The notes under the pieces: model-generated | Told to the model about the DNA's origin: nothing | Seen by the model: only the letters and a program-made list of their open reading frames with translations | Databases searched by the model: none | DNA from: Pseudosulfitobacter pseudonitzschiae | GTDB taxonomy: Bacteria > Pseudomonadota > Alphaproteobacteria > Rhodobacterales > Rhodobacteraceae | DNA: 64,000 nucleotides | Direction of reading: 5' to 3' | Assembly: GCF_900129395.1 (NCBI RefSeq) | Contig: NZ_FQVP01000002.1 | Location: 186,001 to 250,000, forward strand | Shown: positions 6,839 through 47,079 of the stretch, in pieces | Layout: the number at the start of each line of letters is the position of its first letter | Numbering within the stretch: the first letter of the stretch is position 1 | Program-made: the position numbers and the translations under genes

Positions 6839-8422
6839 ATGGCGAAAATGACGGAAGCTGGCATGACCAGCAAAGCGTGGCCTTTCGAAGAAGCACGCCG
6901 CATCCTCAAACGCTATGAAAAGGCGCCGCCTGAAAAGGGTTATGTGCTGTTTGAAACCGGCTATGGCCCCAGCGGCCTGCCGCATATCGGCACCTTTGGC
7001 GAGGTGGCGCGGACCACGATGATCCGCCGTGCCTTTCAGGAAATCAGCGACATCCCGACACGGTTGATCTGTTTCTCGGACGATCTGGACGGGATGCGCA
7101 AGGTGCCGGGCAACGTGCCGAACCCTGACGCATTGCAGGAGCATCTGCAAAAGCCGCTGACCTCGGTGCCGGACCCTTTCGAGAAATTCGAAAGCTTTGG
7201 CCACCACAACAACGCGATGCTGCGCCGGTTCCTTGATACCTTCGGGTTTGAATACGAGTTCATCTCGGCCACAGAATTCTATGCCTCGGGCAAGTTCGAC
7301 GAGGTGCTGTTGCGCGCCGCCGAGAAGTACGACGAGATCATGGCGGTGATGCTGAAAAGCCTGCGCGAAGAGCGTCAGCAGACCTATTCGATCTTTCTGC
7401 CGATCCATCCCGAAACGGGCCGTGTTCTGTATGTGCCGATGAAAAAGGTGGATGCAGCCGAGGGCACGATCACCTTTGACGACCCCGAAACCGGCACCGA
7501 GATGACGCTGCCGCTGACCGGTGGCAATGTGAAGTTGCAGTGGAAGCCCGATTTTGGCGCACGCTGGGCCGCACTTGAGGTCGATTTCGAGATGTACGGC
7601 AAGGACCACAGCACCAACACGCCGATTTATGACAGCATCTGCCGCATCCTGGGATGGAAAGCGCCCGAGCATTTCACTTACGAGCTGTTTCTGGATGAGA
7701 ACGGTCAGAAGATTTCCAAATCTTCCGGCAATGGCGTCAGCATCGACGAATGGCTGACCTATGCCAGCGCGGAAAGCCTGTCCTATTTCATGTACCAAAA
7801 GCCGAAGACGGCCAAGCGGATGCATTTCGATGTGATCCCCAAGGCGGTGGACGAATACCACCAGCAACTGCGGGCCTATGTGGATCAGGACGACAAGGCG
7901 CGGCTGAACAATCCGGTGTGGCACATCCACGGCGGTGACGTGCCCGAGTCCAAGATGCTGGTGCCGTTCTCGATGTTGCTGAACCTTGCGTCGGTGTCGC
8001 AGGCCGAGGACAAGGACCGGCTGTGGGGCTTTATCCAGCGGTACGCGCCCGATGCGACACCGCAAAGCAACCCGGACATGGATCAGGCGGCAGGCTTTGC
8101 CGTGCGCTATTTCAACGACTTCGTGAAGCCCAAGCGCACCTTCCGTCTGCCCACCGACCTTGAGCGCGAGGCGCTGGAGGCTTTGCGGGACGAGTTGAAG
8201 GCCTATGATGGCGCGCTGGACGATGAGGCGTTGCAATCCATCGTCTATTCCGTCGGGCGCGACCGGTTCGATCCGCTGCGCGCGTGGTTCACGGCACTGT
8301 ACGAAGTGTTGCTGGGCGCAAGTCAGGGGCCGCGGTTCGGCGGGTTTATCGCGCTGTATGGTGTCGATGAAACCATCGCGTTGATCGACCGGGCCCTGGC
8401 GGGCGAGTTGGTCAAAGGCTGA
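6839..8422 (+). CDS. lysK: Lysyl-tRNA synthetase, class I
   Basis: Charges tRNA-Lys with lysine. This is the class I (archaeal-type) enzyme found in many alphaproteobacteria instead of the class II LysS. The 527-aa protein carries the Rossmann signature [13 protein letters not shown] (HIGH motif) and the KMSKS equivalent KISKSSGNG, with a helical C-terminal anticodon-binding region. The ATG at 6839 is preceded by AAGGA at 6826-6830 with eight-base spacing, which decides between several upstream ATGs. It is followed by a good intrinsic terminator, so it is probably monocistronic. Confidence 0.95.
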
Positions 8423-8433
8423 GCATTGCAGGG

Positions 8434-8475
8434 ATGCGGGCTGGGGCAACCCTGTCCGCATTTTGTTGTTTTAGA
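8434..8475 (+). terminator. Intrinsic terminator after lysK
   Basis: Arms 8434-8445 and 8450-8461 form a 12-position stem (one G-U, one mismatch) closed by a GCAA tetraloop. A T-rich run follows to 8475. Confidence 0.8.
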
Positions 8476-8518
8476 AATCTACGCTAGTTTACTCCGTGTG
8501 TTCATAACGAGGTAAGCC

Positions 8519-8932
8519 ATGTTCAGATTTATCCTGCCTGCCCTGATTGCCCTGACACTGTCCCTGACCGTGCCTGTGTCCGTCCAGGCCCAAGAGACCG
8601 CGATCACCGACACGATCGGTCGACAGATCGAAGCCTTTCAGGCTGATGATTTCGATCAGGCATTCGGTTTTGCCAGCCCGTCGCTGCAAAGCATGTTCCG
8701 CACGCCAGAGAATTTCCGACAGATGGTCACCCAAGGCTATCCGATGGTCTGGCGCCCCGCGCAGGTCGAGTATCTGGACCAGCGGACCGAGGACGGGACG
8801 GTTGGGCAAAAGGTCATGATCACCGACCAGAAGGGCGGTGTGCATGTGCTGGACTACCGGATGCTGCAAACCGAAGAGGGTTGGAAAATCAACGGTGTGA
8901 CCCTGTTGGACAGCAGCGCGGTCGCTGTCTGA
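8519..8932 (+). CDS. Secreted DUF4864 domain protein
   Basis: A 137-aa protein with a clear Sec signal peptide (hydrophobic stretch at residues 5-20, cleavage after VQA near residue 24). It is followed by a compact domain matching DUF4864 of alphaproteobacteria: TIGRQIEAFQADDFDQAF, AFGFASPSLQ and the closing EGWKINGVTL. The fold resembles the NTF2/SnoaL-like alpha+beta cone, where a helix pair precedes a curved sheet. Function is unknown; a periplasmic ligand-binding role is possible. It has its own promoter space after the lysK terminator and is followed by a structured leader region. Confidence 0.8.
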   Translation: MFRFILPALIALTLSLTVPVSVQAQETAITDTIGRQIEAFQADDFDQAFGFASPSLQSMFRTPENFRQMVTQGYPMVWRPAQVEYLDQRTEDGTVGQKVMITDQKGGVHVLDYRMLQTEEGWKINGVTLLDSSAVAV

Positions 8933-8971
8933 GACGGACCCACCGTGACGGTGCTGTGAGGCGCTGTTAAC

Positions 8972-9032
8972 CCGGTGTTGATACACCCTGCCGCCGGAAC
9001 GGGTGGCATAGCCCCTGTCAGGTCAACACCGG
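8972..9032. repeat. Long-range inverted repeat before the beta-helix gene
   Basis: CCGGTGTTGA at 8972-8981 is exactly complementary to TCAACACCGG at 9023-9032. A smaller nested pair, CCTG/CAGG, lies inside. The element sits between the DUF4864 stop and the start at 9087. It could be a terminator without a U-tract for the upstream gene or a structured 5' leader for the downstream gene. Confidence 0.5.
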
Positions 9033-9086
9033 CGCAGGCACGGGGTCATTCGGACCTTTTGCCGCGCTGCGGGAAAGGGTGAGTTT

Positions 9087-11372
9087 ATGAACAAGGCAAT
9101 TACCGATGGCGTGCTGTTAATGCCGCCGCCGTTCGCGAATGGTTTGGATGTCTATTCCAGCGGCGACGGCACACCGGGGTCGGACACCTATGCCAATGCG
9201 GCCAATGCGGCCTTTGTCCCTGCCGATCAGGACTTTGCCGGCTGCCTTGAGGTTCAGAAGAACGCATCCACGACCAAGGTGCGGTACATGGGTGAAACGC
9301 CCCTGCTGCCGGGGTGCTATTTGCGGGTGACGGTGCGGGTGAAGGCCGTCAGCGGCAACCTACCCTCGGTTCGGGTGGCGGGCTATGCGGCGGCTGCGGG
9401 GGGCGGCAACGTGTCGGGCGTGGATCAGACCAGCGACAGTGTGGCGCTGACCGCTTATGGCGAGGTGGTCGAGGTCAGCGCGATCATCGGCACAGGCGAC
9501 CGCAACGGCGTTGATCTGGTCTGGGGGAGAGAGGCCATCTATGGCCACTTCGGGCTGGACCTGACGGGGCCGAACGGTGGCGTGGTGCGTATTGATGACA
9601 TCGTGATCGAGGACGTCACTTCGGTCTTTCTGCGCGATATGCTGGCGCAGGTGGATGTGCGCGACTATGGCGCGATTGGCGATGGGACGACCGACGACAG
9701 CGCCGCATTTGATGCCGCCAATGCCGCTGCCAACGGGCGCGTGGTGCTGGTGCCTGCGGGCACCTATCGGCTGAACAGCGATGTGACCTTTGACACCCAT
9801 GTGAAGTTCGAGGGCAAGGTCACAATGCCGGTGGATGCGGTCCTGTTGCTGCGCCGTGATTTCCATTTGCCAGCCTACATCGACGCATTCGAGAACGAGG
9901 AAGAGGCATTCAAGAAAGCGTTCCAGGCGCTGCTGAACAATGCCGATCATGAATCGCTGGACATGGGCGGGCGCAAGGTGGCGGTGACGGCCCCCATCGA
10001 CATGGTTGCGACCGTGCCCAGCAAGACCAGCTATGCCACCCGCCGGATCATCCGCAACGGGCAGTTCGAGGCATCGGGCACCGCTGCCTGGGCGACCGAA
10101 ACCACCACGTCGCAGGCCACTTATGACCCCGGCAATGCAACCCGGTTGGACAATGTGGTGAACGTGGCCAACATCCCGGTTGGCAGTCTGGTTCAGGGCA
10201 ACGGCGTGGGGCGCGAGGTGTATGTCCGCTCCAAGAACGTGGCACAACAGCGGATTACCCTGTCGGCGCCGCTGTTTGATGCGGATGGCACGCAGAACTT
10301 TACCTTCAAGCGGTTCAAATACCTGCTGGATTTCAGCGGCTTTTCCAACCTGGCCAAATTCGGTCTGGATGGCATCGAGTTCCAGTGCAACAACGTCTGC
10401 TCGGGCATTCTGCTGGCGGAATCCGGGCTGACGTTCACGGTGCAGGACTGTTTCATCTCGCGGCCCAAGGATCGCGGGATCACCTCGCACGGCGGCGGTT
10501 GTCAGGGCATGATCATCGACCGTTGCCAGTTCCTGTCATCCGAGGATGGGGCGGACGTGTCTGACCGCGTTTCCATCGGGTTCAACACCAACGCCAACGA
10601 CGTGAAGATCCGCAACAACCGGGCCACCAAGTTCCGCCACTGGGCGGTGATCGGCGGCGGGTCGTCGATCATTATCGGCAACCATTTCTTTCAGGGCGAC
10701 ACGGTCAACGGTGGTGTCCGCAGCGCGGGCATCGTGATGGCCAAGCCGCACAGCTCGGGGGTGATTTCGGGCAATTACATCGACAACTGCTTTATCGAAT
10801 GGACCAACGAACACGATCCGGCACCTGACTTCAGCTCGGAGTTTTCGTTCAGTGCCCTGTCGATCACCGGCAACACATTCCTGTCGGGCAGCGTGGCGCC
10901 GTGGTTCAGCTATATCGTGGTCAAGCCGCATGGCGCGGGGCATTTCCTGTCGGGCGTGTCGATTACGGGCAACAAATTCCGGTCGATCAGCGGGAACATT
11001 GATCGGGTGGAACGGGTCGACACATCCTTTGCCGACCTGGATCGGGGACGGTTCAAGGATGTTGAGTTTCATGGCAATTCGTTCCACGGGATCAACACGC
11101 CGGTGTCGAACCCGCTGCGGGTCCGTCATGGCGAGACGACAACAGCGCAAACATGGGTGATCGACACCAATGGAGAGCTGCCGTTTGAAGGGTGGGCCAC
11201 GCAGGTGGTTGCCGTCACGGCCCATGGCCGGTTGCGCAATGACAACAACGTCACAAAGTTCGATTTCCCCTATACCGACCCCGAAGAAGGCCCGAACCGC
11301 GATCAGGTCCATCTGGGGTGGGACCAGCCGATGAAAGGGACGGTGAACCTGATTGTGCGTATGGACAATTAG
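9087..11372 (+). CDS. Pectate-lyase-3 / GH28-related right-handed beta-helix protein
   Basis: A 761-aa protein. Residues 1-185 form a beta-rich module of the carbohydrate-binding or tail-adaptor kind. At about residues 190-240 comes the diagnostic Pectate_lyase_3 entry motif, VRDYGAIGDGTTDD followed by PAGTYRL. The rest is a parallel beta-helix with repeated turns such as ISGNYIDN, ITGNTFLSG and ITGNKFRS. There is no signal peptide, unlike secreted polysaccharide lyases. No catalytic Asp cluster of true GH28 is obvious, so activity is uncertain. Possible roles are a surface or exopolysaccharide-modifying protein or a phage-tailspike-like adhesin. SD AAAGGGTGAG precedes the ATG. Confidence 0.8.
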   Translation: MNKAITDGVLLMPPPFANGLDVYSSGDGTPGSDTYANAANAAFVPADQDFAGCLEVQKNASTTKVRYMGETPLLPGCYLRVTVRVKAVSGNLPSVRVAGYAAAAGGGNVSGVDQTSDSVALTAYGEVVEVSAIIGTGDRNGVDLVWGREAIYGHFGLDLTGPNGGVVRIDDIVIEDVTSVFLRDMLAQVDVRDYGAIGDGTTDDSAAFDAANAAANGRVVLVPAGTYRLNSDVTFDTHVKFEGKVTMPVDAVLLLRRDFHLPAYIDAFENEEEAFKKAFQALLNNADHESLDMGGRKVAVTAPIDMVATVPSKTSYATRRIIRNGQFEASGTAAWATETTTSQATYDPGNATRLDNVVNVANIPVGSLVQGNGVGREVYVRSKNVAQQRITLSAPLFDADGTQNFTFKRFKYLLDFSGFSNLAKFGLDGIEFQCNNVCSGILLAESGLTFTVQDCFISRPKDRGITSHGGGCQGMIIDRCQFLSSEDGADVSDRVSIGFNTNANDVKIRNNRATKFRHWAVIGGGSSIIIGNHFFQGDTVNGGVRSAGIVMAKPHSSGVISGNYIDNCFIEWTNEHDPAPDFSSEFSFSALSITGNTFLSGSVAPWFSYIVVKPHGAGHFLSGVSITGNKFRSISGNIDRVERVDTSFADLDRGRFKDVEFHGNSFHGINTPVSNPLRVRHGETTTAQTWVIDTNGELPFEGWATQVVAVTAHGRLRNDNNVTKFDFPYTDPEEGPNRDQVHLGWDQPMKGTVNLIVRMDN

Positions 11373-37655: not shown

Positions 37656-37733
37656 GGGCCGTTAGCTCAGCTGGATTAGAGCAGGGAACTTCTAATTCTC
37701 AGGTCGGGGGTTCGAGTCCTCCACGGCTCGCCA
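37656..37733 (+). tRNA. tRNA-Arg (anticodon TCT)
   Basis: A complete cloverleaf: acceptor GGGCCGT/ACGGCTC (one G-U), D-arm GCTC/GAGC, anticodon stem GGGAA/TTCTC with loop CTTCTAA (anticodon TCT, reading AGA/AGG), T-arm GGGGG-TTCGAGT-CCTCC and an encoded CCA end. Confidence 0.95.
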
Positions 37734-37955: not shown

Positions 37956-39584
37956 ATGCTTATTCATCGCCGCCACGCTCTTGGACTTATGGGGGCCGCT
38001 GCCGGCTCTTTGGCTCTGCCGGGGCTGTCGTTCGCACAATCCCAGCGCCGCACCGTCACCATCGCCGTCCAAAAGATCACCAACAACAACACGATGGATG
38101 TCTGGAACGAACAGTCCAACGTCGGTGAACGCGTGTTTTTCCCCAACCTGTGGGAAGGTCTGATCAACCGCAACTGGATGGGCGATCAGGGTGGTGTGCC
38201 CGGTCTTGCGACAAGCTGGAAGCGTCTGGATGACAAGACCATCGAACTGAAGCTGCGCGAAGGCGTGAGATTCCACAACGGCGACGAAATGACCGCCGAC
38301 GACGTGGTGTTTTCGTTCTCGGACGAACGTGTGTTTGCGGGGACCCAGCCCGACGGCGGCGAAACGCTGTATGCGGACAATTTCAAGCCCAAGACAGACA
38401 AGGAACTGCCCGCCGGTGTGCCCGGTGTGGGCCGTCGTCTGTGGCCCGCCCTGCGCGGTGTCGAAGCGGTGGATAAGTACACCGTGCGGTTCCACAACGC
38501 ATCGCCTGATGTGACGCTTGAAGGGCGCCTGATCGCCTTTGGCTCGCAGATCGCCAGCCGCCGTGCGTGGGACGAAGCTGCGACATATGCCGACTGGGCC
38601 AACGCGCCCGTGACGACCGGCGCCTATAAGGTGCAGGAATACCGCCCCGACGTGTCGCTGACACTGGTCGCACACGATGACTATTGGGGCGGCCGCCCGC
38701 CGCTGGCGGAAATCCGGTTCCTGGAAGTGCCCGAAGTGGCCAGCCGCGTGAACGGTCTGCTGTCCGGCGAATACGATTTTGCCTGCGACCTGCCGCCCGA
38801 CCAACTGGACGCCGTGCGCAACACCGCCGGGCTTGAGGTGCAGGGCTCGACCATTCTGAACCACCGCATTCAGGTCTTTGACAAGGTGCACCCGGTCCTG
38901 TCCGACCCGCTGATCCGCCGCGCCATGACCCATTCGATCGACCGCCAGCTGATCGTCAACGCCTTGTGGGACGGCCAGACCAAAGTGCCCGCAGGTCTGC
39001 AATTTGAATTCTACGATGACATGTTCATCAAGGGCTGGACCGCCCCCGAGTTCAACCTGGAAATGGCGCGCGATCTGGTGAAACAGTCCGGCTATCAGGG
39101 CGATGCGATCCCGTTCCGCGTGCTGAACAACTATTACATCAACCAGGTTTCGAACGCGCAGATCATGGTCGAGATGTGGAAGCAGGCGGGCCTGAACGTC
39201 GAAATCCAGATGGTCGAAAACTGGGGCCAGGTGCTGGAAGACAACGACACACGCGGCATCCGCGACTGGTCGAACTCGGCCACGTTCAACGATCCGGTGT
39301 CGTCGATTGTGGCGCAGCATGGGCCGAACGGTTTGCAGCAACAGCAGCACGAATGGACCAACGTCGAAATGAACGAGCTGTCGAACTTCATGCAGAAGTC
39401 GACGGATCGCGGCGCGCGCAAAAAAGCGTTCGCGCGGATGCTGGAAATCACCGAGCGTGAAGATCCCGCATTCCAGGTCCTGCACCAGAACTGCGTGTTC
39501 ACCGGCATGAAATCGGACCTGAACTGGAAGGCCGCACCGGCCTTTGCGATGGATTTCCGCGCCGACAACTGGAACGCGTCCTGA
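37956..39584 (+). CDS. Opp-type ABC solute-binding protein (SBP_bac_5)
   Basis: A 542-aa periplasmic binding protein of the dipeptide/oligopeptide cluster. The N-terminus has twin Arg (RRHALGLMGAAAG) and a signal cleaving after SFA near residue 27. Family blocks: LREGVRFHNGDEMTADDVVFSF and IRRAMTHSIDRQLI. This family also carries agrocinopine (AccA), glutathione, nickel and sugars, so peptide uptake should not be assumed. First gene of an eight-gene operon with a phosphodiesterase and phosphatase. Confidence 0.92.
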   Translation: MLIHRRHALGLMGAAAGSLALPGLSFAQSQRRTVTIAVQKITNNNTMDVWNEQSNVGERVFFPNLWEGLINRNWMGDQGGVPGLATSWKRLDDKTIELKLREGVRFHNGDEMTADDVVFSFSDERVFAGTQPDGGETLYADNFKPKTDKELPAGVPGVGRRLWPALRGVEAVDKYTVRFHNASPDVTLEGRLIAFGSQIASRRAWDEAATYADWANAPVTTGAYKVQEYRPDVSLTLVAHDDYWGGRPPLAEIRFLEVPEVASRVNGLLSGEYDFACDLPPDQLDAVRNTAGLEVQGSTILNHRIQVFDKVHPVLSDPLIRRAMTHSIDRQLIVNALWDGQTKVPAGLQFEFYDDMFIKGWTAPEFNLEMARDLVKQSGYQGDAIPFRVLNNYYINQVSNAQIMVEMWKQAGLNVEIQMVENWGQVLEDNDTRGIRDWSNSATFNDPVSSIVAQHGPNGLQQQQHEWTNVEMNELSNFMQKSTDRGARKKAFARMLEITEREDPAFQVLHQNCVFTGMKSDLNWKAAPAFAMDFRADNWNAS

Positions 39585-39646
39585 CCCAAACCCGATACCT
39601 GTGGCGCAGCGATCCTGCTGCGCCACAGGCTATTTGAAAGCCTGAA

Positions 39647-40639
39647 ATGTCTTATGTTTCCATACGTGACCTGAAAGTTTCCTTTGATGGGGTTCAGGTT
39701 CTGCACGGCATCAATCTTGATGTCGCCAAGGGCGAGGCGCTGGGGCTGGTGGGTGAATCCGGCTGCGGCAAGTCGGTGACCTGGCTGGCCGCACTGGGCC
39801 TGTTGCCGGGCAAGGCGACGGTCAGCGGATCGGTGACCGTCGAAGGCCAGCAGTTGATCGGCACCGGACGCGCCGCCGTCGAGGGGGTGCGCGGTGGCAA
39901 GGTCGCGATGATTTTTCAAGACCCGTCGTCGTCGCTGAACCCGGTGCGCACCGTCGGTCACCAGATTGGCGAGAGCCTGCGGTTGCACCGTGGCATGGAC
40001 CGCCGCGCAGGCCGGATTGAGGCCGTGCGCTTGCTGGATATGGTCGGCATTCCGGGCGCATCCAAACGGGTCGATCTGTACCCGCACGAGTTTTCCGGCG
40101 GCCAGTGCCAGCGCGTGATGATCGCCATGGCGCTGGCCGGCGCGCCGGATCTTTTGATCGCCGATGAACCCACGACGGCGCTGGACGCCACGATTCAGGC
40201 GCAAATCCTTGACCTTCTGGCGACATTGCGCCGCGAAACGGGGATGGGCATGGTGTTCATCAGCCACGATCTGGGCGCGGTTGGTGCGATCTGTGACCGT
40301 GTGCATGTGATGTACGCAGGCCGGATCGTTGAAAGCGGTGCCATCGGCCCGATGTTCGACGCACCGCGCCACCCCTACACCCGTGGCCTGTTCGACGCGA
40401 TCCCGCGACTGGACGGCACGCGCGACCGGTTGATCCCGATCCACGGCACCGTGCCGGACCCGCGCCATATGCCCCAAGGCTGCGCCTTTGCCCCGCGCTG
40501 CGCCAAGGCGCAGGCGTTCTGCAACAGCGACGTACCCGCGCTGAAACCACAGCAGGATGGCCGCCAGTTGGCTTGTTTCTATCCGGTCACGGCGCCCGCC
40601 ACCGGCACTGCTGCCACCGACGAAAGGCTGCCGGCATGA
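39647..40639 (+). CDS. Opp-type ABC ATPase, OppD/DppD position
   Basis: A 330-aa ATPase: Walker A GESGCGKSVTW, signature FSGGQCQR (with an unusual Cys for Arg/Lys), Walker B LLIADEPTTALD, and the oligopeptide C-terminal domain with PQGCAFAPRCAKAQAFC, which may bind an iron-sulfur cluster in relatives. Its TGA overlaps the next ATG by four bases. Confidence 0.92.
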   Translation: MSYVSIRDLKVSFDGVQVLHGINLDVAKGEALGLVGESGCGKSVTWLAALGLLPGKATVSGSVTVEGQQLIGTGRAAVEGVRGGKVAMIFQDPSSSLNPVRTVGHQIGESLRLHRGMDRRAGRIEAVRLLDMVGIPGASKRVDLYPHEFSGGQCQRVMIAMALAGAPDLLIADEPTTALDATIQAQILDLLATLRRETGMGMVFISHDLGAVGAICDRVHVMYAGRIVESGAIGPMFDAPRHPYTRGLFDAIPRLDGTRDRLIPIHGTVPDPRHMPQGCAFAPRCAKAQAFCNSDVPALKPQQDGRQLACFYPVTAPATGTAATDERLPA

Positions 40640-41619
40640 CCGCATTGCTGCAAGCGCGCGGGCTGGTCCGCTGTTACGCGGGCCAGAAATCCCTGTTCAC
40701 CAAACCGTCCTTGGTGAGGGCGGTCGACGGTGTCGATCTGACCCTGAACCCGGGCGAAACGTTGGGCATCGTTGGGGAAAGCGGTTCGGGCAAGTCGACG
40801 CTGGGCCGGATGCTGCTGGGCATTGATGCCCCGACCGAAGGGCAGGTGCTGTTCGACGGCCAGCCCATGCCCGCGCTGCACAGTGCGCCGTGGCGGGCGT
40901 TGCGCGCACAGATGCAGTTTGTCTATCAGGACCCGTTGGCCGCATTGGACCGCCGGCTGACCATCGCCCGCCAGATCGGCGAGCCGCTGGAGATCCACGG
41001 CCTTGCCACCGGGGCCGAACTGGCCGAACGCGTGGCCGAACTGATGGCGCAGGTGGGCCTGCGGCAGGATCAGGGCGCGCGCTATCCCCACGAGTTGTCG
41101 GGCGGCCAGCGCCAGCGGGTGATCATCGCCCGCGCCTTGGCCACATCGCCCCGTCTGCTGGTCTGTGATGAGCCGGTGTCGGCGCTGGATGTGTCGATTC
41201 AGGCGCAGGTGGTCAACCTGCTGCGCGATCTTCAGGAACGCCACGGGATCGCCATGGTGTTCATCAGTCACGACCTGAAAGTCGTGCGCAACATCTGTGA
41301 CCGTGTCGCGGTGATGTACCTTGGCCGGATCGTGGAAGAGGCCAGCTCGGACCAGATTTTCGCGCAGCCCGAACACCCCTATACCCAAGCGTTGGTGTCG
41401 TCGGTGCCGGTGCCCGGAAAACGGCTGCAAGGCCGCATCCTGCTGAAGGGCGAGCCGCCAAACCCCGCGCAACGCCCTGCGGGATGTGCGTTCCACCCGC
41501 GCTGTGCGGCGGCGCTGCAGATTTGTGCGCAATCCGTTCCGCCCTTGCAACCCACCGCCCCCGCGCGCCGCGCCGCCTGTCACCTGCTGGACGCCAGCCA
41601 CGCCGGACAGGCCGCCTGA
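40636..41619 (+). CDS. Opp-type ABC ATPase, OppF/DppF position
   Basis: A 327-aa second ATPase: Walker A GESGSGKSTLG, signature LSGGQRQR, Walker B LLVCDEPVSALDVS, C-terminal RPAGCAFHPRCAAALQIC. It forms a heterodimer with the upstream ATPase under the two permeases. The ATG at 40636 is the overlap start (ATGA). Confidence 0.92.
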   Translation: MTALLQARGLVRCYAGQKSLFTKPSLVRAVDGVDLTLNPGETLGIVGESGSGKSTLGRMLLGIDAPTEGQVLFDGQPMPALHSAPWRALRAQMQFVYQDPLAALDRRLTIARQIGEPLEIHGLATGAELAERVAELMAQVGLRQDQGARYPHELSGGQRQRVIIARALATSPRLLVCDEPVSALDVSIQAQVVNLLRDLQERHGIAMVFISHDLKVVRNICDRVAVMYLGRIVEEASSDQIFAQPEHPYTQALVSSVPVPGKRLQGRILLKGEPPNPAQRPAGCAFHPRCAAALQICAQSVPPLQPTAPARRAACHLLDASHAGQAA

Positions 41620-41650
41620 TGGCGCGCGCCATGACCCCGAAAGCCACACG

Positions 41651-42580
41651 ATGCTGAACTATTTTGTGACCCGCCTGTTCCGCGCGGTGCTGACGATCCT
41701 GTTGGTGATGACCTTTGCCTTTGTGGTGCTGCGCCTGTCGGGCGATCCTGCCTCGATCCTGCTGGGACCGGATGCACCCACCGACAGCATAGCGGCGTTC
41801 CGCGCCCGGTGGGGTTTGGACGATCCGCTGTGGAAACAGTATCTTGCCTATCTCAAATCCATCGCCCAACTGGATTTCGGCGTGTCCATGCGCGACCGCT
41901 CTCCGGCGATCGATCTGGTGCTGGAACGGGTGCCCGCCACGCTGGCCCTGACCGTGCCGACGCTGTTGATCCAGCTTGGCGTCGGCATTCCCGCAGGCGT
42001 CTACGCCGCCTTGCACCGTGAATCCGTGGCGGATCGCGGGGTTATCATGCTGTCTATATTCGGCTTTACCATCCCGTCCTTTGTCATGGGGCTGGTGCTG
42101 GTTCTGGTCTTTGCCGTCACGCTGGGCTGGTTGCCATCCGGCGGGCAGGACAGTTGGCAACACGCGATCCTGCCGATTGCCACCATGTCGGTCGGCGGTA
42201 TCGGCATCCTTGCCCGCTTCTCGCGCTCGGCGATGATCGAAGTCATGGGCCAGCCCTATATCCGCACCGCCATGGCCAAGGGGCTAAGCTGGCGCGACGT
42301 GGTGTGGAAACACGCGTTGCCCAATGCCTCGGTCCCGATCGTGACCATCGTCGGCTTCATGGTCGGGTCGCTGATCGCGGGGGCCGTGGTGGTCGAAAGC
42401 ATTTTCTCATGGCCCGGCATCGGCAGGTTGCTGATCGTGTCGGTGTCGAACCGTGATCTGGCGGTGGTGCAATGCCTGCTGCTGGTGATCGCCTCGGCCA
42501 TGGTCATCGCCAACCTCTGTGTCGATTTCGCCTATGGCCTGCTGGACCCGCGCCTGCGGGCCAAAGCCGCCGCACATTAA
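41651..42580 (+). CDS. Opp-type ABC permease, OppB/DppB position
   Basis: A 309-aa permease with six helices; N-terminal FVTRLFRAVLTILLVMTFAF and a long periplasmic loop are typical of DppB. The EAA loop is AMAKGLSWRDVVWKHALPNA. The ATG at 41651 is chosen from the conserved LNYFVTRL start. Second permease starts 11 bases after its stop. Confidence 0.93.
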   Translation: MLNYFVTRLFRAVLTILLVMTFAFVVLRLSGDPASILLGPDAPTDSIAAFRARWGLDDPLWKQYLAYLKSIAQLDFGVSMRDRSPAIDLVLERVPATLALTVPTLLIQLGVGIPAGVYAALHRESVADRGVIMLSIFGFTIPSFVMGLVLVLVFAVTLGWLPSGGQDSWQHAILPIATMSVGGIGILARFSRSAMIEVMGQPYIRTAMAKGLSWRDVVWKHALPNASVPIVTIVGFMVGSLIAGAVVVESIFSWPGIGRLLIVSVSNRDLAVVQCLLLVIASAMVIANLCVDFAYGLLDPRLRAKAAAH

Positions 42581-42591
42581 AGGACAGTGAT

Positions 42592-43458
42592 ATGACCGCT
42601 CAGGCAACAAACATCACCGCGGCCCCCTCGCTGGTACGGCGCTTGCGGATCAGGGTGCCGCTGCTGGTGGCCTTTGGGCTGGCGTGGCTGGGGCTGATGG
42701 TGTTCACGGCCGTTTTCGCCGACCTCATCCGTCCCTATGACGTGACGCAGATGGACCTGTCGGCGCGTCTGGTCGGCCCGCTTAGCCCCGGTCACCTGCT
42801 GGGCACGGACGAGCTGGGCCGTGATGTGCTCTCGCGGCTGATCCAGTCCATTCGCGTGTCGCTGGCGATCGCCTTTGGCGCGACGCTGCTGTCGGCGTTT
42901 TTCGGCACCACGCTTGGCTTTCTCGCGGCACAGTTTCGTGGCGTGGTCGAACACCTGATCCTGGTGCTGGCCGACTTTCAGGCGGCGCTGCCGTTCCTGA
43001 TCCTGTCGCTGGCGGTCCTGGCGTTCTTCGGCTCGTCCATGGTGCTTCTGGTCGGACTGATGGGGTTCTACGGCTGGGAACGGTACGCCCGCATCTCGCG
43101 CGGTCTGGCGATTTCGGCGGGGGCGCAGGGCTATGCCTCGGCTGTGGTGCAACTGGGCGCCAAGCCATCGCGGGTGTACCTGCGGCACATCCTGCCCAAC
43201 GTCGCCTCTACCCTGATCGTGTCGATGACCCTGACCTTCCCCGAGATCATCCTGATGGAAAGCGGGCTGTCGTTCCTGGGCCTGGGCGTGCAGCCCCCCG
43301 AAAGCTCGCTGGGCAATATGGTCGGCTTTGGCCGCGAATATCTGACCCGCGCGCCGTGGATCATGCTGGGGCCTGCCTTTGTGATCATGATGACGACGCT
43401 GTCGATCTCGCTGGTCGGGGACTGGCTGCGCGACAAGCTTGACCCGACTATTCGCTGA
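42592..43458 (+). CDS. Opp-type ABC permease, OppC/DppC position
   Basis: A 288-aa permease with six helices. N-terminal cytosolic tail, then VPLLVAFGLAWLGLMVFTAV. The DppC-type signature LGTDELGRDVLSRLI and EAA loop VQLGAKPSRVYLRHILPNV are present. AGGACAG precedes the ATG. Confidence 0.93.
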   Translation: MTAQATNITAAPSLVRRLRIRVPLLVAFGLAWLGLMVFTAVFADLIRPYDVTQMDLSARLVGPLSPGHLLGTDELGRDVLSRLIQSIRVSLAIAFGATLLSAFFGTTLGFLAAQFRGVVEHLILVLADFQAALPFLILSLAVLAFFGSSMVLLVGLMGFYGWERYARISRGLAISAGAQGYASAVVQLGAKPSRVYLRHILPNVASTLIVSMTLTFPEIILMESGLSFLGLGVQPPESSLGNMVGFGREYLTRAPWIMLGPAFVIMMTTLSISLVGDWLRDKLDPTIR

Positions 43459-43473
43459 CAAAGGACACCTGAC

Positions 43474-44232
43474 GTGACCCAAATTATCGCCCATCGCGGC
43501 GCACGCAATCTGTGGGCGGAAAACTCCCTGTCCGGGTTCCGCAATGTGGTGGAACTGGGCGTCGGCGCGGTGGAATTCGACCTGCATCTGGGCGCAGGCG
43601 GCGAGGTTCTGGTGATCCACGACGCCACGCTGGACCGCTCGACAACGGGCACAGGGCCGGTGCGCACGCTGACCGACGCCACCCGCCACGACCTGCGCCT
43701 GATCGGCCCCGACGGCGAGATTGCCGAAGGCGTGCCGACCTTGGCCGAAGTGCTGGATATCCTCGCCCACGTGCCGGGCCTGCGGCTGTTCCCCGAGATC
43801 AAGGCAGACGAGACCGGGTTCTACGACCCCGCGCTGATTGCCGCCACGGTTGAGACGCTGCGCGCCTATGATCTGGTATCACGCACGGTTCTGCACAGTT
43901 TCGACACCGGCGTGTTGCGCATGATCCGCGACACGGCACCGGAATGTGCGCGCAAGATCTCGGTCAACCGCGATTGGGTCGACCGTCAGGGTGGCGTCGC
44001 GGCGTTCTTTGACGGGCTGGGTGATCTTGCCGGTTTGGTGGCCGTGCATCACGCGCTGTTCGAGGCTGAATTCGACCTGATCACCCGCTTGTTTCCGTTG
44101 GAGCAGCTGGGCGTCTGGACGTTGAACAATCCTGACCTGATTGCACGTTGGTTGGGCCGCGGTGTCGGGTTTCTGACCACCGATGACCCGCGACTGGCGC
44201 ACAGGATCATGGCGCAGGAGATGGCGATATGA
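43474..44232 (+). CDS. Glycerophosphodiester phosphodiesterase family enzyme
   Basis: A 252-aa TIM-barrel phosphodiesterase. The catalytic sites are IIAHRGARN (HR pair), ENSLSGF, VEFDLHLGAGG and LVIHDATLDR. There is no signal peptide, so it acts on imported substrate. In Agrobacterium the homologous AccF opens agrocinopine. Start is GTG with AAGGA ten bases upstream; its TGA overlaps the HAD gene's ATG by four bases (ATGA), so coupling with the phosphatase is tight. Confidence 0.92.
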   Translation: MTQIIAHRGARNLWAENSLSGFRNVVELGVGAVEFDLHLGAGGEVLVIHDATLDRSTTGTGPVRTLTDATRHDLRLIGPDGEIAEGVPTLAEVLDILAHVPGLRLFPEIKADETGFYDPALIAATVETLRAYDLVSRTVLHSFDTGVLRMIRDTAPECARKISVNRDWVDRQGGVAAFFDGLGDLAGLVAVHHALFEAEFDLITRLFPLEQLGVWTLNNPDLIARWLGRGVGFLTTDDPRLAHRIMAQEMAI

Positions 44233-44912
44233 CTGCCATAGAGCTGGTCATTTTCGACTGTGACGGTGTGCTGATCGACAGCGAGGCCATGGGGGCCACT
44301 GCCTTGGCCGGCGCCATTTCCGATGCGGGCGTGCCGATGACGACGCAAACCGCCGAGCGGACGTTTTCCGGCGCAGGACGGGATGAAACCCACGCATTGA
44401 TCGCCGGACTGGGGCTGAATGCCACGCACGTCCTGACCGACGCGGGCGCACGGCTTGAGGCCTTGTTCGCCCAAGGCGTTCCGCCCGTGCCCGGGATGCA
44501 CCGCCTTCTGGCCGCGCTGGATGTGCCGGTTTGTGTCGCGTCCAACAGCGGCGTTGACCGTTTGCGCGCAAGCCTTGGCCGTACCCCGCTGGCCGCTTTT
44601 TTCGGCCCTCATATCTACAGCGCCGACCACGTCGCGCACAGCAAGCCGGCGCCCGATCTGGCCCTGCATTGTCTGGCGCAGATGCACACCGCCGCAGATT
44701 GCGCGGTGTTCATCGATGACAACATTCACGGCATCCGCTGTGCCCGCGCGGCCGGTGTTCTGGCCATCGGCTTTGTCGGGCCGGCTGACCATCGCGCGAA
44801 CCATGCCGACACGCTGCGCGCGGCAGGGGCCGACCACGTGGTGCACGGTGCCGAACAGCTTGGCAGTCTGCTGGCCCGCCTGACCCAACCCAGCGTCGCT
44901 GCCACTGTTTAA
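44229..44912 (+). CDS. HAD-superfamily phosphatase
   Basis: A 227-aa hydrolase of HAD subfamily I: nucleophile motif FDCDGVLIDSE (DxD), SNSGV (motif II), KPAPD (motif III Lys) and FIDDNIHG (motif IV). The cap type resembles beta-phosphoglucomutase/phosphoglycolate phosphatase-like enzymes that dephosphorylate sugar phosphates. In this operon it should remove phosphate from a product of the phosphodiesterase. Substrate unknown. Confidence 0.9.
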   Translation: MTAIELVIFDCDGVLIDSEAMGATALAGAISDAGVPMTTQTAERTFSGAGRDETHALIAGLGLNATHVLTDAGARLEALFAQGVPPVPGMHRLLAALDVPVCVASNSGVDRLRASLGRTPLAAFFGPHIYSADHVAHSKPAPDLALHCLAQMHTAADCAVFIDDNIHGIRCARAAGVLAIGFVGPADHRANHADTLRAAGADHVVHGAEQLGSLLARLTQPSVAATV

Positions 44913-44947
44913 GCTTTCCCCTTCACTCAACACGCAAGGACCACACC

Positions 44948-45772
44948 ATGACCGATCTTCCGCTGCTGGGCGCCGCTATGCCGACGGCCACGCTTGAAAC
45001 GCTTCAGGATTTCATCCTGTCCGAAAACCGCGATCTGGAAATTCAGGATTTCTGCGACGGCGATCTGCTGAACGACGACTGGAAAACAGTCGCCGACCAC
45101 GCCCGAAACCTGCTGACCGGATACACCGGACGGCTGGGCATTCACGGGCCGTTCTGGGGCCTGAACATCGCCAGCCCGGACACCGAAATGCGCGCGCTGA
45201 ACAAGCGCAAGCATTTGCAGGGCATCGAGGTGTGCGAATATCTGGGGGCCACCCAGATGGTCATTCACAGCCCCTACACCACGTGGAGCTTCAACAACCT
45301 GGACAACGCGCCCGCGCGCAAGGAATACGACCGGCTGGTGGAAAACTGCCATGACACCATGGACGAAGTCGTGAAACGCGCCGAGGATTGCGGTGTGACC
45401 ATGGTGATCGAAAACATCGAGGACATCGACGCCGACATCCGCTGCGCGCTGGCCGACAGCTTTAATTCGCCCGCCATGGCCGTGTCGATTGACACCGGGC
45501 ACGCGCATTACGCACACGGCACGAATGGTGCGGCACCGGTGGATTTCTACGTGCGCCGTGCCGGTGACCGGTTGCAGCACATCCACCTTCAGGACGCGGA
45601 CGGATACGCCGACCGTCACTGGTCCATCGGGCAGGGCACCATCCGCTGGGAGGCCGTCTTTCGCGCGCTGGGCGAGTTGGGCAGCAACCCGCGCCTGATC
45701 CTGGAACTGCGCGACAAGGACGGCATTCTGCCTTCGGTGGAGTATCTGCAATCGCTCGGCCTGGCCCGCTGA
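44948..45772 (+). CDS. Sugar phosphate isomerase/epimerase-like TIM barrel
   Basis: A 274-aa xylose-isomerase-like (AP endonuclease 2 family) barrel. Metal-binding positions are visible as LGIHGPFWG, MVIHSPY, MVIENIEDID (Glu), SIDTGHAHYAH (Asp, His), HIHLQDADG and LILELRD (Glu). It probably isomerises or epimerises the sugar or polyol freed by the two preceding enzymes, though family members also include dehydratases. Last gene of the operon, followed by a strong terminator. Confidence 0.88.
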   Translation: MTDLPLLGAAMPTATLETLQDFILSENRDLEIQDFCDGDLLNDDWKTVADHARNLLTGYTGRLGIHGPFWGLNIASPDTEMRALNKRKHLQGIEVCEYLGATQMVIHSPYTTWSFNNLDNAPARKEYDRLVENCHDTMDEVVKRAEDCGVTMVIENIEDIDADIRCALADSFNSPAMAVSIDTGHAHYAHGTNGAAPVDFYVRRAGDRLQHIHLQDADGYADRHWSIGQGTIRWEAVFRALGELGSNPRLILELRDKDGILPSVEYLQSLGLAR

Positions 45773-46320: not shown

Positions 46321-47079
46321 CTAAACCGCGGTTGCCTGATCCCATGACACGGCGGAACTGACGTTCATGATCGCGGCCTGCGTGTTGTCGCCGCTGATGT
46401 TCAGCTTGGGGCCCATCGGGACTGCGCTGAACCCCAGACGCGTCATCCACCGCTGGAAAATGGCGGGGACAATGCCGATGACGAACTTTGCGCCCTGGGC
46501 ATTGGCCGAACTGGCCATCGCCTGCATCAGCTTGGTTTGCACAAGCATCCGCCGCTCTGCCGAAACATCGGGCGTGATGAAAAGCCGGGTCGCCTCGATC
46601 ACATGGGGCGCAACGGGCGCTTCCTGGTACAGAACCGTTTCCGGGATGTCCTGCAACAGCCCTCGCTGCGCGTCCTTCAGCATGTAGGTATAGCACCCGC
46701 AATAGGCCGTGGTCGGCAGCAACCGCACACCGGCCAGCACCCGCCCGAACTCATGCACCACCACGGCCGAGCTTTGTGGCGTATCGTATTGGTCGAATTC
46801 CATGCCGTCGGTGTTCGGCAGGTCCCATTTCTTGTGATCGATAAAGACACGTTTCCTGGCCCGCAGGAAATCAACATACAACTCGCCAAACCGGTGCTGG
46901 TTGGCGACGGACACCGTCGTCGCCATGATCCGGTTGGCCGGCGCGTTCACGGCTTCGACGTTCAGATATTCGGACCGAGGCTTGAAAGACCGATCATTTC
47001 GGGCAGGTTTCTCTGGAGCCTGCGGACGTAGACCGGGAAAGTGAGCGGCCGCGGTTCCGTTGTGTGCAGAGGATTCCAT
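46321..47079 (-). CDS. LuxI-family autoinducer (acyl-homoserine-lactone-like) synthase
   Basis: A 252-aa GNAT-fold protein with the LuxI invariant pattern. It has R75, F79 and W85 in RKRVFIDHKKW, then E94, D96 and D99 (MEFDQYD), R119 in LAGVRLLPTT, and the EATR motif. These match LuxI R24/F28/W34/E43/D45/D48/R70/E101/R104 by spacing. The first 50 residues are an unusual extension; a second ATG at 46926 would remove it. No LuxR gene is in the window; the divergent neighbour is a membrane histidine kinase. The product could be an acyl-homoserine lactone or a related N-acyl signal. Confidence 0.85.
   Translation of the reverse strand: MESSAHNGTAAAHFPGLRPQAPEKPARNDRSFKPRSEYLNVEAVNAPANRIMATTVSVANQHRFGELYVDFLRARKRVFIDHKKWDLPNTDGMEFDQYDTPQSSAVVVHEFGRVLAGVRLLPTTAYCGCYTYMLKDAQRGLLQDIPETVLYQEAPVAPHVIEATRLFITPDVSAERRMLVQTKLMQAMASSANAQGAKFVIGIVPAIFQRWMTRLGFSAVPMGPKLNISGDNTQAAIMNVSSAVSWDQATAV

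Follow-up and report, generated by a model that had tools for sequence, protein, structure and literature searches.

A candidate phosphodiester-uptake operon in Pseudosulfitobacter pseudonitzschiae and the exchangeable enzymes beside its transporter

Which substrate is imported by a transporter whose genes run directly into those of a phosphodiesterase, a phosphatase and a putative sugar isomerase? The question is raised by positions 37956-45772 of the window, i.e. the 64,000-nucleotide stretch of Pseudosulfitobacter pseudonitzschiae DNA analysed here (contig NZ_FQVP01000002.1, positions 186,001 to 250,000). Eight intact open reading frames, all on the + strand and free of internal stops, encode a family-5 substrate-binding protein, two ATPases and two permeases of the ATP-binding cassette (ABC) type, a GDPD-family phosphodiesterase, a HAD phosphatase and a TIM barrel (Table 1). 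The eight-gene operon is confirmed: its arrangement goes beyond chance, because L034, Pseudosulfitobacter pseudonitzschiae pSMR1-1 and Paracoccus methylovorus p1 have the identical order, and L035 and L085 contain the full set in rearranged form (L numbers denote loci compared here). Comparison of the encoded proteins with their relatives makes it likely that the operon serves the uptake and breakdown of a small phosphodiester, and we know of few importers for such compounds.

The transporter, its enzyme partners and its pocket

The strongest argument comes from the enzymes encoded beside the transporter. A genome scan gave at least 580 relatives of the binding protein, from which 80 named loci were retained; partners were called with hidden Markov models built from the partners in the first loci, and scoring was confined to the 59 loci that reached 45% identity and had sufficient flanking sequence. 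In 45 of these, one or more enzymes of the GDPD (26 loci), PehA (15), NPP (6) and SpdA-like (4) types lay within 7 kb, and in eight others the barrel was present without a phosphodiesterase. GDPD, the calcineurin-like SpdA, the alkaline-phosphatase superfamily (PehA and NPP) and the barrel are mutually unrelated, and what they have in common is the cleavage of phosphate esters. Because such unrelated families converge beside one transporter, the ligand is likely to belong to the phosphodiester class. On the binding-protein tree, which was built quickly and joins some long branches, the partner state must have changed at least 30 times among 82 loci. The transporter forms a conserved module, and the neighbouring phosphodiesterase is a slot that has been refilled by different families in different lineages. 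The association extends to more distant relatives, with a phosphodiesterase beside 15 of 19 at 33.5-45% identity and beside one of five below 33.5%. Two groups of loci are without partners, namely L094, L095 and L155, and L165-L167. The initial annotation had asked whether GDPD and HAD are conserved with the transporter, and the answer is divided, since some phosphodiesterase usually is, whereas GDPD itself is one partner among several and a HAD gene is nearby in 10 of the 59 loci.

As a control separate from the partner models, public family models were used in six genomes to compare AccA-like places with other family-5 places. A phosphodiesterase was found within 8 kb at seven of seven AccA-like places vs four of 98 others; within 10 kb the latter number was five of 98 (Fisher p 3.5e-8), and counting weaker matches it was at least six of 98. 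Two of these genomes contain other family-5 binding proteins that adjoin an SpdA-like or NPP-type enzyme (G000, contig C19 at ~81-87 kb and C22 at ~672-679 kb; G092, contig C23 at ~105-110 kb and C6 at ~70-77 kb), and these pairs are possibly more phosphodiester importers in the same genome.

One of the partners is an enzyme of known structure. The binding-protein gene of Rhizobium johnstonii 3841 is immediately preceded by one whose product passes the PehA cut-off and matches PDB entry 2VQR (pRL90232) over all 514 residues with 1223 bits. This enzyme, RlPMH, is the phosphodiesterase-slot partner in that strain, and PehA relatives occur in 14 other scored loci; it belongs to another superfamily than the enzymes of the window, where the slot holds GDPD and the barrel and no PehA. 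RlPMH is a model enzyme of catalytic promiscuity, for which we know of no natural substrate. It has been placed among phosphodiesterases and phosphonate monoester hydrolases (PMC5488252; this and the other papers cited here are represented by excerpts).

Among solved proteins the binding protein itself is closest to AccA, which binds agrocinopine in Agrobacterium. The top seven rows of a PDB sequence search were AccA entries (4ra1, E 2.8e-80), including 8cke, which bears a generic name only, and the next protein followed at 2.3e-27. Foldseek gave a similar result with an AlphaFold model of the protein (mean predicted local distance difference test score 90.5), i.e. AccA in rows 1-11 (E 1.4e-50 to 1.8e-46) and another protein in row 12 (1.5e-38). 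The protein scored under every NCBIfam cut-off for Opp, Dpp and Nik proteins (top match 128.3 bits vs 600 required), and SBP_bac_5 was the only Pfam domain matched; the CUT1-type SBP_bac_1, expected of a Ugp/GlpQ system, did not match. The initial annotation had named specificity for peptides as the result that would overturn its proposal; the protein is nearest to AccA and not to peptide binders.

In AccA the pyranose OH1 is contacted by N54, N284, S419 and E510, and the phosphate by N54, S419, Y375 and Y376 (excerpts of El Sahili et al. 2015, PMC4526662). N54, N284, S419, Y375 and Y376 are retained in 69, 72, 73, 71 and 73 of 73 family rows, respectively, and five of the six anchors are present in the window's protein, which has F530 in place of E510, and F195 and T443 in place of W178 and W423. 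The deep-pocket pattern QSN, N, YY, WS, Q, W, F is nearly constant across the phosphodiesterase-partner groups of the loci with at least 45% identity, with exceptions in few rows, e.g. three loci of the group without a partner that start with ASN and are without WS as written. This suggests a ligand whose buried portion hardly depends on the neighbouring enzyme, and we infer that this portion would consist of the phosphate and an adjacent hydroxyl on a scaffold unlike the sugars of AccA. The same excerpts list Glu504 in the AccA pocket; the pTiC58 protein (L125 33299-34864) has Trp504, which is kept in 72 of 73 relatives.

The acc operon of pTiC58 (Agrobacterium fabrum) has the same order of binding protein, two ATPases, two permeases, GDPD and phosphatase gene, and the window's binding protein shares with the AccA structures 4ra1 and 4ze9 the fold and the residues holding OH1 and phosphate. 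AccF and the window's GDPD are 32% identical over 156 residues. The phosphatases differ: AccG belongs to the inositol-monophosphatase family and has no similarity to the window's HAD (E 11), so that the parallel with accG drawn in the initial annotation holds for the place of the gene but not for the protein family. The window also has the additional barrel, only 34% identity to AccA, and replacements of Glu510 and the tryptophan gate. No AccR-type regulator was matched at E 1e-6 by a one-sequence AccR model in window positions 30001-55000. By these comparisons the operon is Acc-like and would work like acc, but pocket, phosphatase and regulator set it apart from acc itself. The Acc-like logic of phosphodiester import and cleavage put forward initially is supported by the kinship with AccA, the gene order of pTiC58 and the partner families.

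The transporter is sparsely distributed. At E 1e-90 or better the binding protein was found in 13 of 295 sampled genomes of the family, 14 of 385 of the class and three of six of the genus, the window's own genome being included each time, and 242 of 72,556 plasmid records contained a relative at E 1e-60. A binding protein of P. pseudonitzschiae is 96% identical to that of the window. Relatives at 70-74% identity include Rhizobium, Sinorhizobium, Microvirga and a grassland-soil Paracoccus, and the deep pocket of these soil and plant relatives is near-identical to that of the window's protein, so that the marine origin first suggested for the ligand is not supported. No description of the wider transporter family was found in the literature searched, a weak negative since subscription journals were mostly outside the search. 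L104 contains AccA-like binding-protein genes in tandem (7356-8897 and 8935-10551), with none of the sought phosphodiesterases found nearby.

The TIM barrel

Public records annotate the barrel as a sugar phosphate isomerase/epimerase. Its top NCBIfam match was CbiR (E 2.7e-12; 46.7 bits vs a cut-off of 105), and it also scored low with the nfo model (25.3 bits vs 129.65) and with the D-tagatose/psicose 3-epimerase model (32 bits vs 300). CbiR is an AP endonuclease 2 superfamily enzyme with cobamide substrates (excerpts of PMC7733943). The window's barrel shares superfamily and metal-ligand set with CbiR and endonuclease IV (Endo IV), but is under the curated cut-offs, and among proteins of solved structure it is closest to TTHB071 and MJ1311; the partners sought beside the transporter included no cobamide or DNA-repair gene. 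Residues H66, H107, E155, D182, H185, H213, D222, H224 and E253 are invariant (38 and 21 aligned rows). When the barrel was aligned with E. coli Nfo, using what we take to be the metal-ligand positions of Nfo, eight of the nine Endo IV metal ligands aligned in every one of 60 rows, and H66 as the ninth lay three columns away from Nfo H69. TTHB071 and MJ1311 share this pattern, whereas D-tagatose 3-epimerase is without counterparts of H107, D222 and H224.

The genomic context of the barrel also points to organophosphorus compounds. Among 25 barrel neighbourhoods scanned, CUT1 (Ugp-type) genes were present in 11, phosphonate-type genes in seven and neither in seven, one of which has an SpdA-like enzyme; these are raw counts without a background rate, five of the 18 positive loci supplied models, and the PhnM matches may be other amidohydrolases. 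Beside the AccA-like transporter the barrel was found in none of 15 PehA loci vs 33 of 44 others (Fisher p 1.9e-7). Phylogenetically independent pairs on the tree gave no significant exclusion (median p 0.25), and mutual exclusion of PehA and barrel as a rule was dropped for that reason. In seven Bradyrhizobium-type loci the barrel is the sole partner. Relatives that are 44-48% identical lie in phosphonate transport or synthesis clusters (L122 6986-7801, L119 6974-7810, L121 6974-7801), and in two rhizobial operons GDPD is followed by another, divergent barrel whose metal-ligand pattern is similar (L108 15305-16228, L111 15319-16233).

Because of the Endo IV metal ligands, the absence with PehA and the Ugp-type and phosphonate neighbours, we consider that the barrel is probably an organophosphorus ester hydrolase. 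The alternative, that it is an isomerase or epimerase acting on a sugar freed by GDPD and HAD, is less likely but must be taken seriously: it fits the Pfam name, epimerase NCBIfam models match weakly, and the 50 best of 241 Foldseek matches (E <=0.001) contain TTHB071, MJ1311 and, from rank 7, sugar epimerases, with no Endo IV. A full Endo IV metal set that D-tagatose 3-epimerase partly lacks would not be expected of such an enzyme, nor would CbiR as its top match, the phosphonate contexts of its relatives, or a barrel that is the only partner of the transporter in eight of 59 loci and never accompanies PehA. The label of sugar isomerase-like barrel in the initial annotation therefore agrees with the structural ranking and conflicts with the metal ligands and the organophosphorus context.

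Proposed pathway and its alternatives

In the pathway that we propose, the periplasmic protein would bind the ligand via its phosphate and adjacent hydroxyl with the phosphate-holding residues that it shares with AccA, and the two permeases and two ATPases would import the intact diester. In the cytoplasm GDPD, and probably the metal-dependent barrel, would cut the P-O-C bonds, and HAD would then strip the phosphate from the resulting monoester; the products would be phosphate plus either an alcohol or a sugar. The order of the steps and the chemistry of barrel and HAD are our inference; cleavage after import is suggested because GDPD starts at its catalytic domain and is without a leader.

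Regulators of SorC/DeoR and RpiR type are known to sense phosphosugars, and such genes are near seven and three of the 59 relatives, respectively (ten loci, some of which supplied models). AccR senses arabinose-2-phosphate (excerpts of PMC4526662), and the neighbouring regulators would by analogy be compatible with a phosphosugar inducer; neither a SorC/DeoR- nor an RpiR-type gene was found in window positions 30001-55000 at E 1e-6.

Several results weigh against uptake and breakdown of a phosphodiester as we propose it, in addition to the structural neighbours of the barrel. The partner models derive from partners of the AccA-like family and so are biased toward finding these beside close relatives; six of the 59 loci have neither a phosphodiesterase nor the barrel, GDPD occurs in just 26, and SpdA- or NPP-type enzymes also stand beside a few of the other family-5 transporters counted in the control. 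At the position of AccA E510, 58 of 73 rows have Phe and four have Glu, and neither W178 nor W423 is conserved, so the sugar part of the ligand need not resemble that of AccA. The five-residue set appears to mark a wider AccA-like group and is not exclusive to this family, since all five residues are kept by two (L180, L182) and four by another five (L174, L177, L188-L190) of the 15 more distant binding proteins compared, the other eight having at most two. Finally, the best PHO-box site in the window matches 9 of 14 positions, i.e. chance.

These results bear unequally on the other explanations of the operon. That a true agrocinopine/pyranose-2-phosphate system has moved into marine bacteria, with an arabinose-2- or glucose-2-phosphodiester as ligand as for AccA, would account for the AccA kinship, the gene order and the five anchor residues, but we regard it as improbable given the low identity to AccA, the replaced Glu510 (in the window as in most rows) and gate tryptophans, the lack of any AccG- or AccR-type gene among those found, and relatives in bacteria without a known crown gall link. 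Still less credit is due to an importer of peptides, opines or metal chelates that GDPD, HAD and barrel adjoin by an accident of operon history. Family-5 transporters do mostly carry peptides or nickel, and the loci without phosphodiesterase and barrel would fit; yet the phosphodiesterases at 45 of 59 loci, the outcome of the control, the proximity to AccA and scores that reach none of the Opp, Dpp and Nik cut-offs make it very unlikely. A scavenger of glycerophosphodiesters (glycerophospho-inositol, -glycerol or -choline, for example) that supplies phosphorus and glycerol through a classical GDPD is a special case of our explanation and has a modest chance of being correct: GDPD is the commonest partner and barrel relatives adjoin Ugp-type (CUT1) transporters, but the slot is also filled by PehA, NPP and SpdA-like enzymes, which are not classical glycerophosphodiesterases, and Ugp is the usual route of glycerophosphodiester uptake.

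Other known systems resemble the phosphodiester importer proposed here in function but not in family. Ugp and GpxB, the glycerol-phosphate importers of marine bacteria, also take up organophosphorus compounds, but belong to the CUT1 and PhnT families rather than family 5 (excerpts of PMC12718374), and XanT-XanP, which takes up and hydrolyses a sugar phosphodiester in xanthosan use by Xanthomonas, consists of a TonB-dependent transporter and a 2H phosphoesterase, families unlike those of the window (excerpts of PMC12807533).

A more far-reaching explanation, which we put forward tentatively and hold to be somewhat less probable than not as a whole, is that the transporter represents a widespread undescribed importer class for one common phosphodiester core, with a deep-pocket pattern (QSN, N, YY, WS, Q, W, F) that differs from AccA's, in soil, plant and marine bacteria; that its cutting enzyme has been exchanged again and again among no fewer than four unrelated superfamilies (GDPD, calcineurin-like SpdA, alkaline-phosphatase-type PehA/NPP and the Endo IV-like barrel); that the natural substrate of RlPMH is this ligand; and that the barrel is a new class of three-metal phosphoesterase which also serves Ugp-type and phosphonate importers. 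What is new beyond acc is the wide transporter family, the swapped enzymes and the link to RlPMH. If this were true, one transporter family would mark bacteria able to use a particular phosphodiester, RlPMH would be tied to an uptake route and its natural substrate could be sought via the neighbouring binding protein, and the barrel would found a new phosphoesterase class.

Genes of the operon and surroundings

Table 1. Genes of the operon and two neighbouring features (window positions).
Feature	Position	Strand	Evidence
AccA-like family-5 substrate-binding protein	37956..39584	+	PF00496; AccA nearest by sequence and fold; pocket N55, N302, Y393, Y394, S439
ABC ATPase 1, OppD type	39647..40639	+	PF00005 and PF08352; Walker A, signature
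ABC ATPase 2, OppF type	40636..41619	+	PF00005 and PF08352; ATGA overlap with ATPase 1
Permease 1, OppB type	41651..42580	+	PF00528 and PF19300
Permease 2, OppC type	42592..43458	+	PF00528
GDPD-family phosphodiesterase	43474..44232	+	GTG start; PF03009 E 5e-22; catalytic motifs present; no leader
HAD-IA phosphatase	44229..44912	+	PF13419; ATGA overlap with GDPD
TIM barrel, AP-endonuclease-2 superfamily	44948..45772	+	PF01261; Endo IV-type metal-ligand set
tRNA-Arg (TCT)	37656..37733	+	
LuxI-type autoinducer synthase	46321..47079	-	PF00765 E 3e-15; under NCBIfam cut-offs

Pfam and NCBIfam agreed on the families of the operon genes, and the Walker A, ABC signature, GDPD and HAD motifs, in the patterns that we take to define them, were all found. 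The leader of the binding protein has a Tat- or Sec-type look (judged by eye). For HAD the top NCBIfam match was 6-phosphogluconate phosphatase, under the cut-off, and the top PDB match was 2fdr. The junctions are tight as first described, although two rather than three ATGA overlaps lie inside the operon (at 40636 and 44229); the other five gaps are of 62, 31, 11, 15 and 35 nucleotides. A promoter and terminator scan of the operon gave nothing useful.

Phosphate-starvation control of the window's operon was dropped because of the chance-level PHO-box score. Across the family the presumed PHO-box consensus is modestly enriched: sites matching at least 11 of 14 positions lie upstream of nine of 59 loci, compared with 2.6% of random windows (n = 630) and 1.7% of shuffles. 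The tRNA-Arg gene ends 222 nucleotides before the binding-protein gene; a tRNA-borne island was set aside, as the repeat search showed no downstream copy of the tRNA end and the GC content is not unusual. On the opposite strand, 0.55 kb beyond the downstream end of the operon, is the LuxI-type gene; an Agrobacterium-like link to quorum sensing was judged a coincidence, since the nearest relative, L107, has other genes at the corresponding place.

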